NCBI RefSeq assembly: GCF_900109295.1
Contig: NZ_FOIZ01000001.1
Coordinates: 1,612,001-1,676,000, forward strand
Origin: Cognatiyoonia koreensis
GTDB lineage: Bacteria; Pseudomonadota; Alphaproteobacteria; Rhodobacterales; Rhodobacteraceae
Length of the DNA stretch: 64,000 bases
Direction: 5' to 3'
Position 1 is the first letter of the stretch. Each line of letters starts with the position of its first letter. Under the pieces are notes generated by a model. That model was not told where the DNA came from. It ran no database searches and saw only the letters and a list, made by a program, of their open reading frames with translations. This document shows, piece by piece, positions 22,000 through 33,389 of the stretch. The translations under genes were made by a program, and so were the position numbers.

Positions 22000-23784
22000 T
22001 CAGCCGTTTGACGTCAGCGTGACCCCGACCGGTTCAAGCACTTCAACATCCGGACGCAGCCCAAGAAGCGGGGCAACGCGGCGGATCATTTCGGCAGCGA
22101 CAGGTACGGCCGTCCAGCCTGCGGTACGGCGCGGCTTGTCGCCGGAATTCTCCGATGGTTCGTCCAAGGTCACGATCAGAACATACTGCGGATCATCGGC
22201 GGGAAAGACGCTGGCAAAGGTGGAAATGACCTTGTCATCGTAATAACCGCCGCGTGGCTTTGGCTTGTCAGCCGTGCCGGTTTTGCCGCCGACTGCATAG
22301 CCCTCGACCTCGCCAAAGGACGCGGTGCCGCGCACAACTACCTGACGCAGCATATTGCGCGCCCGGGTGCTGACGCTTTCGCTGACAACGCGGGGTCCGT
22401 TCTGCGGACCATCCTGCTTGATCAGGGTCGGCGTGACCTGCGTGCCACCGTTCAAAAGCGATGCATAGCCTGCAGCAAGGTGAAGCGGTGAAGACGACAG
22501 ACCGTGGCCGTAGGAAATCGTCATGGTCGAAATCTCGGACCAGTTACGCGGCAACAGCGGCGCGCCGGTCGGAGCTTCGACCATTTCAACAGGCGTCGCC
22601 TCAAGAAAACCAAGCGAGCGCAGGAAACCACGTTGCCGCTCTGCCCCGATCATCAGCGCCACACGTGCGGTGCCGATGTTGGAGGATTTGACGATCACGT
22701 CTGTCGCACTCAGGCTCGGGCCATAATTGTGGAAATCACGGATGCGAAAGCGGCCCCATTGCAGCGGCCCTTTCGTGTCGATCATCGTGTTCTGGTTGAT
22801 CAGCCCCAGTTCCATGCCTTGCGCGACCGTGAATATCTTGAAGACGGAACCAAGTTCGTAAACGCCCTGCACAGCGCGGTTGAATAGGGGGCTGTCGGAC
22901 TGGTCGCCATCGGTCAGAACGCGGGGGCGGTTGTTGGGGTCAAAGTCAGGCAGGCTGACCATCGAAATGATTTCGCCAGTGTGTACGTCCATCAGGACAG
23001 AGGCCGCGCCCTTGGCATTCATGATCGACATGCCACCGGCAAGCACCTGTTCAGAGGCCGCCTGCACGGTCAGATCAAGCGACAGCTGAAGTGGCGCACC
23101 CTCATTTGCGGGATCACGCAGGTAGGCATCAAAGTGGCGCTCGACACCGGCAACACCGATGACTTCGGCACTGGATACACCCTCACGCCCATAGGACGCG
23201 CCACCAAGGATATGGGCAGCGACGGGACCATTGGGATAGAGGCGCATTTCGCGCGGCCCGAACAGCAGGCCCGGCGATCCGATGTCATGAACCTGTTGCA
23301 TCTGTTCGGGCGACAACTGCTTGCGCACCCAGACAAATTTGCGCGTTCCGGTGAAACGCTTGATCAGGTCTTCTTCTTCAAGCTCGGGAAAGATGCTTGC
23401 CAGCTGACGGGCCGCACTCTCCGGATCAATCATATCCTGCGGATGGGCATACAGGCTGTGGGTTTCCAGATTGGTCGCCAGAATACGCCCGTTGCGATCC
23501 ACGATATCAGAACGCTGCCCGATGATCGGATTGCCCACGGCAGTGGCGCGCGGCTCTTCGGGAACGGTATTGGCCAGCGTGCCCATGCGCGCGCCGATAA
23601 CGACAAACGCGCAAAAGAACATGGCACCCAAAACCAGCAGGCGACCTTCGGCGCGATCACGCATCGCGTCATGGTTCGCCTCATTGCGCTGGCGGCGATT
23701 CTCGGCCTCGATGATGTCGGGATTCTCGCCCTTTTCGCGGGCGCGCAGCACCCGTGCCAATGGACGCAGCGGCGTGCGGATCAT
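22000..23784 (-). CDS. ftsI: Septal transpeptidase FtsI (PBP3)
   Basis: Class B penicillin-binding protein that cross-links septal peptidoglycan with FtsW. The 594-residue protein has a cytoplasmic basic tail, one membrane segment around residues 49-68, a pedestal domain (RSDIVDRNGRILATNLE), and a transpeptidase domain with SVFK (Ser313), SSN (residues 367-369) and KTG (501-503). The four-base overlap with ftsL couples their synthesis. Length and motifs are complete. Confidence 0.96.
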   Translation of the reverse strand: MIRTPLRPLARVLRAREKGENPDIIEAENRRQRNEANHDAMRDRAEGRLLVLGAMFFCAFVVIGARMGTLANTVPEEPRATAVGNPIIGQRSDIVDRNGRILATNLETHSLYAHPQDMIDPESAARQLASIFPELEEEDLIKRFTGTRKFVWVRKQLSPEQMQQVHDIGSPGLLFGPREMRLYPNGPVAAHILGGASYGREGVSSAEVIGVAGVERHFDAYLRDPANEGAPLQLSLDLTVQAASEQVLAGGMSIMNAKGAASVLMDVHTGEIISMVSLPDFDPNNRPRVLTDGDQSDSPLFNRAVQGVYELGSVFKIFTVAQGMELGLINQNTMIDTKGPLQWGRFRIRDFHNYGPSLSATDVIVKSSNIGTARVALMIGAERQRGFLRSLGFLEATPVEMVEAPTGAPLLPRNWSEISTMTISYGHGLSSSPLHLAAGYASLLNGGTQVTPTLIKQDGPQNGPRVVSESVSTRARNMLRQVVVRGTASFGEVEGYAVGGKTGTADKPKPRGGYYDDKVISTFASVFPADDPQYVLIVTLDEPSENSGDKPRRTAGWTAVPVAAEMIRRVAPLLGLRPDVEVLEPVGVTLTSNG

Positions 23785-24140
23785 AGCGGATCCTCCTCTG
23801 TCGACGGGCCAATGGAATTCACGTCGATCGGGTTGGTGATCGGCAGTATATCGGGAAGCGGATAGATGATGTTTTCGACATCGCCAAAGGCATCCGGCAT
23901 CAGCGGCAAGAGACCCAGACGGTCAAAGTTCAGCTCTGCCAGATCAGCGAGCCGGTCGGGGCGGTTCAGATAGGCCCATTCCGCGTTCAACACCTTCAGG
24001 CGTTCGTGCGCGCCGCCGATCTGGGCATGCAGGACACGCACATCGCGGATTGCCTGCTGCGTCTTGTAGTTTTCCTGATAGGCCCAAAAGCCCAACCCCA
24101 TGACCGCCATGGCCGATAGCACAAATAATAAACCGCGCAC
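23781..24140 (-). CDS. ftsL: Cell division protein FtsL
   Basis: Short bitopic protein of the FtsQLB complex that activates FtsWI. The 119 residues have an N-terminal membrane segment (RGLLFVLSAMAVMGLGFWAYQ), then a coiled-coil-like stretch (about residues 30-62), and a C-terminal NRPDRLADLAELNFDRLGL motif seen in alphaproteobacterial FtsL. The start codon is GTG, immediately after the rsmH stop (TAA then GTG), so translation probably depends on reinitiation. The stop overlaps the ftsI start. Confidence 0.88.
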   Translation of the reverse strand: MRGLLFVLSAMAVMGLGFWAYQENYKTQQAIRDVRVLHAQIGGAHERLKVLNAEWAYLNRPDRLADLAELNFDRLGLLPLMPDAFGDVENIIYPLPDILPITNPIDVNSIGPSTEEDPL

Positions 24141-25109
24141 TTACCTTGCCCCTTTTTGCATCGGCATACCGATGTCTTTTGGCGCGACTGTTCCCGCCGC
24201 TGCCCCCGTCCGTGTTGCGACCCGCAGCTTGGCCGACCGGCTGCGCGGGTTCATTTGTAATTCGTCTTTATCCGCCGATATCGCCTTGCGCGATGCCAGC
24301 GACCAGGCGGCCTCTTCCTGTTCGACCTCTGGTGCATAGCGGTTGGCATTGGCCATGCCCCCGCCACGCTTCTGGAAGAAGCGTTTGACCATGCGATCCT
24401 CAACCGAATGAAAGGTGACGACAGCCAGTTTCCCGCCTTCCTTCAACGCGCGCTCAGACGCCATCAGGGCGGCATGCAGTTCGCCGTATTCGTTGTTCAC
24501 CGCAATCCGCAGCGCCTGAAAGGTGCGTGTGGCAGGGTGCGACTGGTTCGGCTTGTGACGGGGCAAACAGCCTTCGACAATCTTGGCCAGCTGCAATGTG
24601 GTCGTCAGGGGGCGTGCGGCGACAATGGCTTTCGCGATGCGGCGTGATGCACGCTCTTCCCCGTAAAGATAAATAATATCAGCCAGTTCCGCTTCAGTGC
24701 TCGTGTTGCAAAGGTCCGCGGCAGACGGGCCATCCTGCGACATGCGCATATCAAGCGGCCCGTCACGCATGAACGAGAACCCGCGCTCTGCAATATCAAG
24801 CTGCATGGACGAAACACCAAGGTCGAGGACAATGCCATCAAGGTCCGACCCGTAATGATCTAGCTTGGAAAAGGTGCCTTGCACCGGTTCGATCGGATAG
24901 TCGCCGATCCAGTCAGCGGCCATTTCAAAGGCAAGCGGATCGCGATCCACGGCAATGACAGTCTCCGCCCCTGCAGCCAAAAGCGCCCGCGTGTAACCGC
25001 CGTTGCCAAACGTGCCATCCAGCCAGACACCGGAAACAGGTGAAACCGCCTTGATCAGCGGCCCGATAAGAACAGGAATGTGGGGAATGTCGTCTGCGGC
25101 AGCTGACAT
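24141..25109 (-). CDS. rsmH: 16S rRNA (cytosine-N4)-methyltransferase RsmH
   Basis: SAM-dependent enzyme (MraW) that methylates N4 of C1402 in 16S rRNA. The 322 residues begin [15 protein letters not shown], followed by [16 protein letters not shown] (SAM site), [49 protein letters not shown] and [13 protein letters not shown], all family signatures. It starts nine bases after the mraZ stop and abuts ftsL, so it belongs to the mraZ-led transcript. Confidence 0.96.
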
Positions 25110-25118
25110 GACTGGTTC

Positions 25119-25613
25119 CTATCCCCCCAACAGGCTGAGAGGGTCGAAATCGTCAGGCTGTTCGGCCAGCCAGTCGGCCGTGGATTCAGAAACGGTCGTC
25201 TCGTAGACGTCATCTTTCCAGATCTCGAAATGGTCAACCATGCCACGGAAGGACAATGCGCCCTCGTCCAGGCCAAGCTTCTTGCGGTGCTTGAGCGGCA
25301 GGACGATGCGGCCGTCCTTATCAACGCTCATACGTTCGGATTGCACGATCACAAGCTGCGTCAACATCTTGCGCGACTTGTCGCCCTTCGGCATGGCCTG
25401 AATGTCGGTCATGATGTTGGCGTGTTCTTTTGCGGTGCGCACCTGCAAACGGTCTTTCAGGTGATCGCCGTAATTCAGATAAAGCGTAACGGGGCTGCCG
25501 GGTGTCCAGTTCGGGTCGCCGGATTCGAGCACACGACGAAAATCAGCCGGAATCGACATACGACCCTTGCTGTCGACCTTACCGTCGAATTCGCCTGAAA
25601 ACCCTGTGTCCAA
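25119..25613 (-). CDS. mraZ: Transcriptional regulator MraZ
   Basis: DNA-binding protein of the AbrB-like fold, known in E. coli to repress the dcw operon by binding TGGGN repeats with a 10-base period. The 164 residues contain two MraZ domains, DSKGRMSIPADFRRVL near the N-terminus and VDKDGRIVLPLKHRKKLGL around residues 97-115. It is the first gene of the dcw cluster and sits behind a long leader with a GGG array, consistent with autoregulation. The C-terminal extension beyond residue 140 is typical of alphaproteobacterial forms. Confidence 0.95.
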   Translation of the reverse strand: MDTGFSGEFDGKVDSKGRMSIPADFRRVLESGDPNWTPGSPVTLYLNYGDHLKDRLQVRTAKEHANIMTDIQAMPKGDKSRKMLTQLVIVQSERMSVDKDGRIVLPLKHRKKLGLDEGALSFRGMVDHFEIWKDDVYETTVSESTADWLAEQPDDFDPLSLLGG

Positions 25614-27781: not shown

Positions 27782-27944
27782 TGGGCGTTCCTTCCGAGTG
27801 AACACATTCGATGAATGCCGCAACATTTAGCATGGCACAACAAATCGCAAGATGAGCGGGCAAATTGCCTGCGAAAGCAGCAGCGCGAAAATTTACCCTT
27901 CGTAAACTTGCACTTGCTGCATAGCCGCAATGCAGAAAGACCCA

Positions 27945-27972
27945 TTGTGCAACTGCAGCATGGGGCTAAATA
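27945..27972 (+). promoter_or_regulatory. Candidate promoter of the DUF1127/sRNA transcript
   Basis: TTGTGC (27945-27950), a 16-base spacer and TAAATA (27967-27972) lie about 58 bases before the DUF1127 start. In R. sphaeroides the homologous transcript is driven by the alternative heat-shock factors RpoHI/RpoHII; the match here does not discriminate between sigma factors. Confidence 0.4.
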
Positions 27973-28030: not shown

Positions 28031-28243
28031 ATGGCATTTACGACACAATCACACGCAGGCATCTCTTTTGCGGAACGCTGGGCCGCTTTCCGGTCCGATA
28101 TGGCCGAAGCCCACGTACGGCGCAAGACATACCGCATCACAAGAAACGAACTGTCCAACCTGTCGGACCGTGAACTCAACGACCTCGGCATCAGCCGGGC
28201 GATGATCAAGCGGATCGCAATGGAAGCGGCCGGTTACGTCTAG
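28031..28243 (+). CDS. ccaF1: DUF1127 small protein (CcaF1-like)
   Basis: A 70-residue basic protein with the DUF1127 core RNELSNLSDRELNDLGISRAMIKRIAMEA at its C-terminus (about residues 37-65). In R. sphaeroides the DUF1127 gene ccaF1 (RSP_6037) heads the transcript from which the CcsR1-4 stress sRNAs are processed, and its product is an RNA-binding regulator of sRNA processing. Here the same order is seen: DUF1127, then a run of CCTCCTCCC hairpins beginning about 10 bases after the stop. The name is given by synteny and domain; the biochemical role is inferred. Confidence 0.85.
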   Translation: MAFTTQSHAGISFAERWAAFRSDMAEAHVRRKTYRITRNELSNLSDRELNDLGISRAMIKRIAMEAAGYV

Positions 28244-28251
28244 GAACAGAA

Positions 28252-28545
28252 TACGGGCCGATCTTCTCCTCCCCTTTGGGTCAGGCCCGCCGGACGCGAT
28301 ATGCACCTCCTCCCGCGTATCGCATCCAAACTCAAGGTGGCGGCATCACCTCCTCCCGATGTCGCCACCTTCAAGGAATACAGGCTCTCACCTCCTCCCG
28401 AGGGTCTGCATCAAAGCGATAGCCCACCTCCTCCCGGGTGATGCGCTTTGCACGATGCGGAATGCGCCACCTCCTCCCGGCGCGGACCGCGACGAATGAG
28501 CGGCGATGTCCACCTCCTCCCGGGCATCGCCGTTATCGTTTCTAA
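28252..28545 (+). ncRNA. ccsR: CcsR/cuckoo-type sRNA array, six CCTCCTCCC hairpins plus one degenerate
   Basis: The exact 9-mer CCTCCTCCC occurs at 28306, 28349, 28391, 28427, 28470 and 28513, each in the loop of a hairpin. Stems are 28296-28304/28315-28323, 28334-28347/28358-28371 (14 pairs), 28381-28389/28400-28408, 28412-28425/28436-28450 (interrupted), 28457-28468/28479-28490 and 28501-28511/28522-28532. A degenerate first copy (CTCCTCCCC near 28266) sits between CGGGCC and GGCCCG arms. The stems differ in sequence, yet pairing is kept by compensating bases, with several G-U pairs. Known cuckoo RNAs carry two such loops each, so this would be about three RNAs plus one half. The last hairpin is followed by TTATCGTTTCT, a possible terminator. 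The loop motif mimics the 16S anti-Shine-Dalgarno. Confidence 0.88.
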
Positions 28546-32339: not shown

Positions 32340-32444
32340 TTCAAGTCTCCTTCTCGGGGTTTAGGCTGGCAGCTCGGTTTGAGCCGTCTCGTCCTCTTGA
32401 AATGACTTTAGGTCTTGCGGACCATCAACAAAATGGCGACTTTA

Positions 32445-32459
32445 TGGAATGACCTTCCA
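32445..32459. promoter_or_regulatory. Palindrome in the doxX-lysR intergenic region
   Basis: TGGAA-TGACC-TTCCA is a perfect inverted repeat, and a further TTCCA lies 12 bases on (32467-32471), about one helical turn away. Its place between divergent lysR and doxX makes it the best candidate for the LysR binding site. Confidence 0.5.
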
Positions 32460-32492
32460 CATATTGTTCCAAATCGAAAGGGGACGTCTTTC

Positions 32493-33389
32493 ATGGATAT
32501 CGTCGACGGACTCCGCGCCTTTGTGGCCACGGTGCAGACCGGTTCCTTTACCGCAGCCGCAGACCAAATGGGCATTTCAAACCGGCTGACATCAAAATAC
32601 GTCGCCGAGCTTGAGACCCGCCTTGGCGTTCGCCTGTTGCAACGCACCACCCGTAAAGTGGGGCTGACCCCCGCTGGCGAAGACCTTTTGGCGCGCGCGC
32701 CGGCCCTGCTGGACGAGCTTGACGATCTGTTGACCGAAGCGGGCGAAGGGTCGCGCGGATTCAAAGGCACCATCCGGGTGTCTGCCCCCGTGACCTTTGG
32801 CGAAATTTATGTGGCCGGGATGCTGGGCCGGTTTGGCGCAGAACACCCCGACCTGCGGATCGACCTGCGCCTGAGCGATCGTTATGTCGACTTGGCGCGT
32901 GACGGGATTGATCTGGCGTTTCGCATTGGCGTCACACAGACTTTATCCGTCAAGGCACGCAAGCTGGGGATGTTGGAAATCATGGCCGCGGCCTCGCCCA
33001 GCTATCTGGCGGACCATGGCGAGCCAATCCAGCCGCACGAGCTGAGCGACCATGCGTGCATCGTGGACACCAACCGCCACGCCACACACAAATGGGGGTT
33101 CTTTAAGGGCGGGGAAGACCACAGCGTCTCGACCGCCGGGCGGTATATGGTGAACTCGGCCCATGCCGCTTGCGAGCTGGCCATGGACGGGCATGGCATT
33201 GTGTACGTGCCGAAATTCTCTCTGTCAGCGGCGATTGAAGCGAGACGTCTAAAACGCGTTTTCCCAGGGTTTGAGGGCGAAACGCTGCCCGTCAGCGCCG
33301 TCTATCTTGAGGGCCGGACCCTGCCGCGCAAACTGCGCGCACTGATCGACTTTGCGCAAAGCGACATCCGCCGTTCAGGGCTTTTGTAG
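32493..33389 (+). CDS. LysR family transcriptional regulator
   Basis: A 298-residue LysR-type regulator: an N-terminal winged helix-turn-helix (DGLRAFVATVQTGSFTAAADQMGISNRLTSKYVAELETRLG, about residues 4-44) followed by a periplasmic-binding-protein-like effector domain starting near FKGTIRVSAPVTFGEIYV. The ATG at 32493 lies 11 bases after AAAGGGGA. It is divergent from the doxX-ygiD-yqjG run, so it very likely controls it; quinones or catechols are plausible effectors, inferred from the target genes only. The subgroup resembles DmlR/PtxR-type aromatic regulators. Confidence 0.92.
   Translation: MDIVDGLRAFVATVQTGSFTAAADQMGISNRLTSKYVAELETRLGVRLLQRTTRKVGLTPAGEDLLARAPALLDELDDLLTEAGEGSRGFKGTIRVSAPVTFGEIYVAGMLGRFGAEHPDLRIDLRLSDRYVDLARDGIDLAFRIGVTQTLSVKARKLGMLEIMAAASPSYLADHGEPIQPHELSDHACIVDTNRHATHKWGFFKGGEDHSVSTAGRYMVNSAHAACELAMDGHGIVYVPKFSLSAAIEARRLKRVFPGFEGETLPVSAVYLEGRTLPRKLRALIDFAQSDIRRSGLL

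Follow-up and report, generated by a model that had tools for sequence, protein, structure and literature searches.

What is encoded by the DNA that follows a small DUF1127 gene of Cognatiyoonia koreensis, where one loop sequence recurs in hairpin after hairpin, and on which messages might it act? In the window, by which is meant the whole stretch of 64,000 nucleotides analysed here, the DUF1127 gene lies on the + strand at 28031..28243 and encodes 70 amino acids that match PF06568 (46.6 bits, cut-off 23.3); the protein has no NCBIfam match at 0.001. Seven tandem hairpins follow 3' of this gene between 28254 and 28534, all on the + strand and evenly packed at a spacing of 36-43 bases. As folded, these are hairpin 0 (28254..28289), hairpin 1 (28292..28327), hairpin 2 (28334..28371), hairpin 3 (28381..28408), hairpin 4 (28412..28450), hairpin 5 (28453..28494) and hairpin 6 (28499..28534). 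The 9-mer CCTCCTCCC occurs six times in the window, always on the + strand (28306-28521), as against a mean of 0.30 and a maximum of 2 in 100 shuffles, which bears out the description, in the first-pass annotation, of six tandem hairpins with one loop word behind a DUF1127 gene. Common to these six is a longer, 12-base word, CACCTCCTCCCG, which is found 6 times in the whole 3.65 Mb genome, each time in the array, and each of the six folds with a 10-base loop. Hairpin 0, with a fold of -16.9 kcal/mol, carries a variant loop, beginning CUUCUCCUCCCC, that retains CUCCUCCC.

The arms of different copies in the window show a mean identity of 0.24 and 0.30 over 10 bases. When arms were swapped between copies, the mean folding energy was -6.5 kcal/mol as compared with -16.6 for the native pairs, and 0/42 swaps reached the native mean, the best of them giving -13.6; some single native stems are themselves weaker than that mean (-10.1, -12.4 and -11.7 with 15-base arms). 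The same test over 38 arrays gave a similar result (native -18.0, swapped -8.1). Since swapping abolishes most of the pairing, it appears that pairing has been retained while the stem sequence was free, as had been proposed from the low identity of the stems. Recent copying of units within the window was considered and is ruled out, the arms of different copies being only 24-30% alike. Near-identical repeated units, representing recent growth, are found in two other genomes of the family (G051 and G025), and none such is present in the window; the arrays with near-identical repeated units at L026, L051/L034 and L052/L011 would suit a study of recent growth.

A fixed loop on variable stems, in several adjacent hairpins, is reportedly the mark of the cuckoo RNAs, which Reinkensmeier and Giegerich are said to have described in 2015 with 2-4 hairpins per RNA. 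The array resembles this family in its fixed loop and in stems of free sequence that keep their pairing under the arm-swap test, and departs from the figure of 2-4 hairpins per RNA in having seven. The Rfam model ar14 (RF02344) matches 28249-28373, comprising hairpins 0-2, at 64.4 bits, above the gathering cut-off of 58.8, and this fit of a covariance model supports the original assignment to a cuckoo/CcsR-type array behind DUF1127. In other registers of the array ar14 remains below 58.8, at 43.6 bits (28374-28494, comprising hairpins 3-5), 49.4 bits and 48.5 bits, and the best match of CcsR1 (RF02791) reaches 34.6 bits at 28454-28538, on hairpins 5-6, under its cut-off of 65.3. Only part of the array exceeds an Rfam cut-off. 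Sub-threshold matches to P6, ar7 and BjrC80 were set aside.

Comparison with known systems places the locus further. A CIN1 locus is described as a DUF1127 gene with CcsR-like RNAs, and CcaF1 as a participant in CcsR maturation (PMC10253847). As in ccaF1-CcsR1-4 of R. sphaeroides, DUF1127 is followed here by same-strand hairpins with CCUCCUCCC loops (PMC10253847, PMC8307010); this loop is exact in 6/7 window hairpins, the seventh retaining 8/9 bases, and by position and domain the DUF1127 gene is the ccaF1 counterpart. The R. sphaeroides locus has four RNAs, however, whereas seven evenly packed hairpins are found here, and the window array falls under the Rfam CcsR1 cut-off. The related RNA RS0680a differs as well, with two stem loops (PMC3927594). 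A fixed loop on variable stems has been described previously (PMC3927594, PMC10746234). The rhizobial ar14 RNA NfeR1 (RF02344; PMC10746234) likewise has three adjacent hairpins with the loop and a TGCA-N6-GCAT motif in its promoter, and it represses transporter and ntrB mRNAs via its loop motifs; yet NfeR1 is described as an independent sRNA gene, driven by a sigma-70 promoter of its own (CTTAGAC-N17-CTATAT), whereas the hairpins here follow a protein gene. A further likeness is to AbcR1/AbcR2 and the VtlR/LsrB regulon (PMC12595884, PMC7486931, PMC7143759), in which anti-Shine-Dalgarno motifs are directed against transporter mRNAs and LysR-type activation extends to DUF1127 genes, although AbcR1 and AbcR2 belong to another RNA family with another loop and are separate sRNA genes. 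The targets named for R. sphaeroides in the accessible text are flhR, the glutathione pool and pyruvate dehydrogenase, not uptake genes. The locus is a CIN1/cuckoo locus of normal size, of a kind already known.

That its size is normal is apparent from the loci of related DUF1127 proteins, the best 80 of 153 being taken. Arrays are present in 38/80 of these named loci, with 3-14 hairpins and a median of 7.5, as counted by a finder anchored on CTCCTCC that misses variants (59/441 TCCTCC words in the 38 array spans lack the preceding C). With seven hairpins the window array is close to the median, and the term 'expanded', which had been applied to it, is not warranted. Examples are the arrays of Palleronia marisminoris (L133; 14 hairpins), Marivivens donghaensis (L100; 9) and Roseivivax lentus (L096; 8). 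Within a draw of 61 genomes of the family, C. koreensis included, one or more exact loop pairs occur in 42 and 49/61 have an ar14-like match, which lies above the cut-off in 12/61. Hairpins come in pairs in many relatives, with gaps near 40 and then 60-80, and are evenly packed in the window, in G006, in G018 and in others. The exact two-loop pattern was found in 8/142 genomes of a class-wide survey, with 5 pairs in C. koreensis, 3 in a genome of the same family and 1-3 in six further genomes; this survey demands exact loops, and rhizobial RNAs may escape it.

Hairpin 0 had been taken for a half unit, a sign of growth or decay of the array. However, the exact 9-mer is missing from the first hairpin in 12/38 arrays, as compared with 10/223 later hairpins (p 3.9e-6, a value that, like the others from this set, overstates independence, the 38 arrays including near-relatives and at least one locus, L102, that is truncated at the end of its contig), and by eye the first hairpin lacks it in both genus-mates (L042, L043). 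Given this recurrence a decaying half unit is not favoured, and hairpin 0 is better read as a recurrent positional variant than as a single decaying copy, so that decay is not needed. A candidate for true decay is an in-array hairpin of one genus-mate, at ~800-830 of L042, in which the CCTCC motif appears by eye to be wholly gone.

The position of the array relative to its neighbours is also conserved. In hairpin 0 the first loop word begins 23 bases after the DUF1127 stop codon. A DUF1127 ORF was found in 29/36 loci, in every one of which the array sits 3' of it, and the first loop word is 19-33 bases past the stop in 25/29. The next upstream neighbour, on the opposite strand, is an Mrp gene in 32/38 array loci, which fits vertical inheritance.

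From hairpin 0 to hairpin 6 the folding energies are -17, -18 and -24, and then -12, -15, -19 and -24 kcal/mol. Strengths that rise twice, as they likewise do at L097, suggest cleavage between hairpin 2 and hairpin 3, and our guess is that processing would yield one RNA of hairpins 0-2 and another of hairpins 3-6. Hairpin 6 is probably also the terminator stem. The 14 bases that follow it contain T at just 5/14, and a terminator scan limited to loops of 3-8 reported none on the + strand. Over the 38 arrays, T occupies 5.8 of the 14 following bases for 37 last hairpins versus 2.2 for 223 inner ones, and the last hairpin is the strongest, or within 1 kcal of it, in only 21/38.

The loop had further been equated with the end of 16S rRNA, and this holds only in part. 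The 16S rRNA of C. koreensis ends in GGATCACCTCCTTTCT, and CACCTCCT is common to this tail and to the six loops. Yet the near-invariant part of the loop, CUCCUCCC, ends in CCC, which the tail does not have, and CTCCTCCC is absent from the tail while present in 260/261 hairpins of the 38 arrays, a conservation that is partly built in, CTCCTCC being the search word and only two positions, the final C of CTCCTCCC and the C in front of CTCCTCCC, being free. That preceding C occurs in 239/261 hairpins, and the 16S-like A before CCTCCT in only 53/261. As CTCCTCCC is absent from the 16S tail and the A is rare, the conserved part complements GGGAGGA rather than copying 16S; the proposal that the loop can pair with ribosome-binding sites is upheld in this form. 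In computed duplexes with one GGGAGGA site, the loop gives -15.7 and the 16S tail -11.0, and with AAGGAGG the order reverses, to -11.8 for the loop and -12.6 for the tail.

GGGAGGA-N4-11-ATG occurs at 62 sites in the genome, as compared with 4 for the reversed pattern. Of these sites 54/62 were scanned, the other 8 being left aside for want of an ORF worth scanning; one of these 8 lies on the antisense strand of the array itself. Solute-binding proteins of ABC, TRAP and tricarboxylate types account for 21/54 scanned ORFs, including one (L183; NMT1-like by Pfam) that we take to be such a protein. The others include two malic enzymes, an FGGY sugar kinase, an acetyl-CoA-synthetase-like enzyme, CO-dehydrogenase-type subunits and PufQ. 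The PufQ gene with its GGGAGGA site (G000:C2:463232-463246; L363) suggests that this genome has a photosynthesis gene cluster. Behind AAGGAGG sites, solute-binding proteins account for 0/20 scanned ORFs versus the 21/54 above (p 0.0004), although three of the 20 are ABC permeases. This control is noisy, with 12 reversed-control matches; there are 35 such sites, 30 of which were retrieved, and the 20 ORFs scanned were those at least 109 aa long. GGGAGGA precedes 5/9 DctP genes of C. koreensis versus 2/436 sampled background genes, or perhaps 4, since the crude ORF caller used for this background, drawn from C. koreensis only, returned 2 GGGAGGA genes from 464 kb that contain 4 ORF-bearing sites; of these 2 genes, one encodes a solute-binding protein.

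Two TGCA-N6-GCAT boxes start at 27909 and 27948 in the window, and two sites at such spacing fit a LysR-type activator. The upstream block found by motif scans (27909..27932, + strand) consists of the first box (27909-27922) running into a VtlR-box-like stretch at 27918-27932, TGCATAGCCGCAATG, which has 3 mismatches to the reported 15-base VtlR box; the block resembles the reverse complement of that box. The second block (27944..27961, + strand), which is aligned in related loci, is ATTGTGCA overlapping the second box (27948-27961). It is possible that this block provides a -35 region, with CTAAAT at 27966-27971, read by eye, as the putative -10; a sigma-70 consensus scan of the window's + strand found no promoter at the array locus. 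Most of sixteen upstream regions align on the two blocks, and TTGTGC and CTANNT-like elements are conserved upstream of array loci. The first block, as TGCA-N6-GCAT running into RGCNGCAWTG, is present in 23/38 array loci and 0 in shuffles. At least one TGCA-N6-GCAT, sometimes the second box, lies upstream of 35/38 array loci (0.85 in shuffles), with ATTGTG 35-36 bases after the box start in 24/35 loci that have the box. ATTGTGCA is found in 35/38 array loci versus 1/42 other DUF1127 loci, and a VtlR-like box with at most 3 mismatches in 28/38 array loci, 3/38 shuffles and 4/42 other DUF1127 loci. TGCA-N6-GCAT itself also occurs at 28/42 other DUF1127 loci (0.65 in shuffles), which agrees with the reported activation of DUF1127 genes by VtlR (PMC12595884). 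TGCA-N6-GCAT is the LsrB motif reported at the NfeR1 promoter (PMC10746234), and the VtlR box (PMC12595884) is also given in the form GCAT-N3-TG-N3-T (PMC7486931). In R. sphaeroides the CIN1 promoter is reported to depend on RpoHI/RpoHII (PMC10253847), and LysR-type control and such a promoter could both act. For the LysR gene at 32415-33389, no cut-off was reached among the 25 of 49 NCBIfam matches listed.

Together, these observations make it fairly probable, in our judgment, that the locus is a CIN1 operon whose DUF1127 3' UTR contains a chain of seven hairpins, that the loops hinder translation from GGGAGGA sites, and that the operon is LysR-activated. The chain would probably be cut into a few small RNAs, RNase E being the enzyme expected at a CIN1 locus, and each loop of these RNAs would present UCCUCCC and pair with GGGAGGA ribosome-binding sites, hindering translation chiefly of periplasmic solute-binding proteins. 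The operon is probably switched on by a putative LysR-type regulator resembling VtlR/LsrB, and a stress sigma factor may take part. The anatomy, the pairing, the conservation of the loop and of the neighbour gene, the family match, the association of GGGAGGA with uptake genes and the upstream boxes are computed here; transcription, cutting, repression and the regulator are what the sequence would predict. A more far-reaching form, in which the cuckoo arrays of this bacterial family restrain nutrient uptake under LysR control and GGGAGGA is a dedicated ribosome-binding site, common to solute-binding protein genes, that fits the loop better than the 16S tail, is offered tentatively and given slightly less than even weight.

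Were the array instead a 16S mimic, its loops would indiscriminately sequester mRNAs, or proteins that associate with ribosomes, and copy number would set the dose, as the first-pass annotation supposed. Such a role would account for CACCTCCT being common to the 16S tail and six window loops and for copy number ranging as widely as 3-14, but it is very improbable given that the near-invariant CUCCUCCC is absent from the tail, that the 16S-like A is so infrequent, and that hairpin 0 retains CUCCUCCC without CACCUCCU. We give almost no credence to a role confined mostly to the processing or stability of the DUF1127 mRNA, other messages being left untouched: the constant location of the array 3' of DUF1127, wherever the ORF was found, and the role of CcaF1 in CcsR maturation (PMC10253847) would suit it, yet the loop is conserved beyond the needs of pairing, and in NfeR1 the same loop acts in trans (PMC10746234).

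More serious, if still unlikely, is the reading in which the CIN1 array is real and acts on a few other mRNAs, GGGAGGA being an unrelated ribosome-binding site typical of strongly expressed transport genes in the family. GGGAGGA sites are present in all 61 family genomes, and their genome-wide density does not track whether a genome has an array (p 0.14; 0.17 with G055 moved), so that the array as a cause of this density is unsupported. Furthermore, the association persists where no array was detected: GGGAGGA precedes 13/30 DctP genes of six array-negative genomes (11/25 without G055), a share still far above background. Nevertheless, the share is higher in six array-bearing genomes, at 23/30 (p 0.017, or 0.025 without G055, kinship ignored), where the samples are 30 of 59 matches (array-bearing) and 30 of 104 (array-negative), any start upstream of the domain was accepted, alike in all groups, and array-negative means having no ar14 match, one of the six, G055, having one exact loop pair. 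The base before GGAG points in the same direction. By the pairing rule, G in this position fits the 16S tail less well than A, as computed energies also indicate, and yet G is dominant in DctP, being found in 31/34 DctP genes of array-bearing genomes versus 14/71 background genes. Its dominance over A is greater in array-bearing than in array-negative genomes (31:1 versus 19:6, p 0.036; 16:5 without G055, p 0.031; kinship ignored in both). Moreover, transporter genes are indeed targets of NfeR1 (PMC10746234). The link of the array to GGGAGGA and uptake genes is suggestive, the association of GGGAGGA with these genes being weaker but present in relatives without a detected array.

If the more far-reaching form is true, one loop, repeated many times, would act together on all mRNAs of a functional class, and the switch controlling it would be of the same kind as that of rhizobial NfeR1, AbcR and DUF1127 genes. 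A code common to the ribosome-binding sites of uptake genes as a class could explain an invariant loop on free stems, and one LysR-type switch could be common to the cuckoo RNAs of two bacterial orders. The uptake-gene code and the LysR-type control exceed what the accessible parts of the cited literature contain, and the novelty of these links is uncertain: a literature search found neither CcsR with LysR nor CcsR with TRAP transporter and sRNA, the founding cuckoo, CcsR and CcaF1 papers being outside its reach.

Two minor observations concern the surroundings of such arrays. The genome G013 (G013:C1:699641-709549; L049, L050) has extra hairpin sites beyond its main array, one of them with its own DUF1127 ORF. 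In the window, an mraZ cluster (Pfam MraZ) lies at 23781-25613, on the opposite strand and 2.4 kb from the DUF1127 gene, and contains beside mraZ ORFs that are presumably rsmH-like and ftsL-like. The R. sphaeroides sRNA UpsM is reported to arise from the 5' UTR of the mraZ cluster (PMC8625941).
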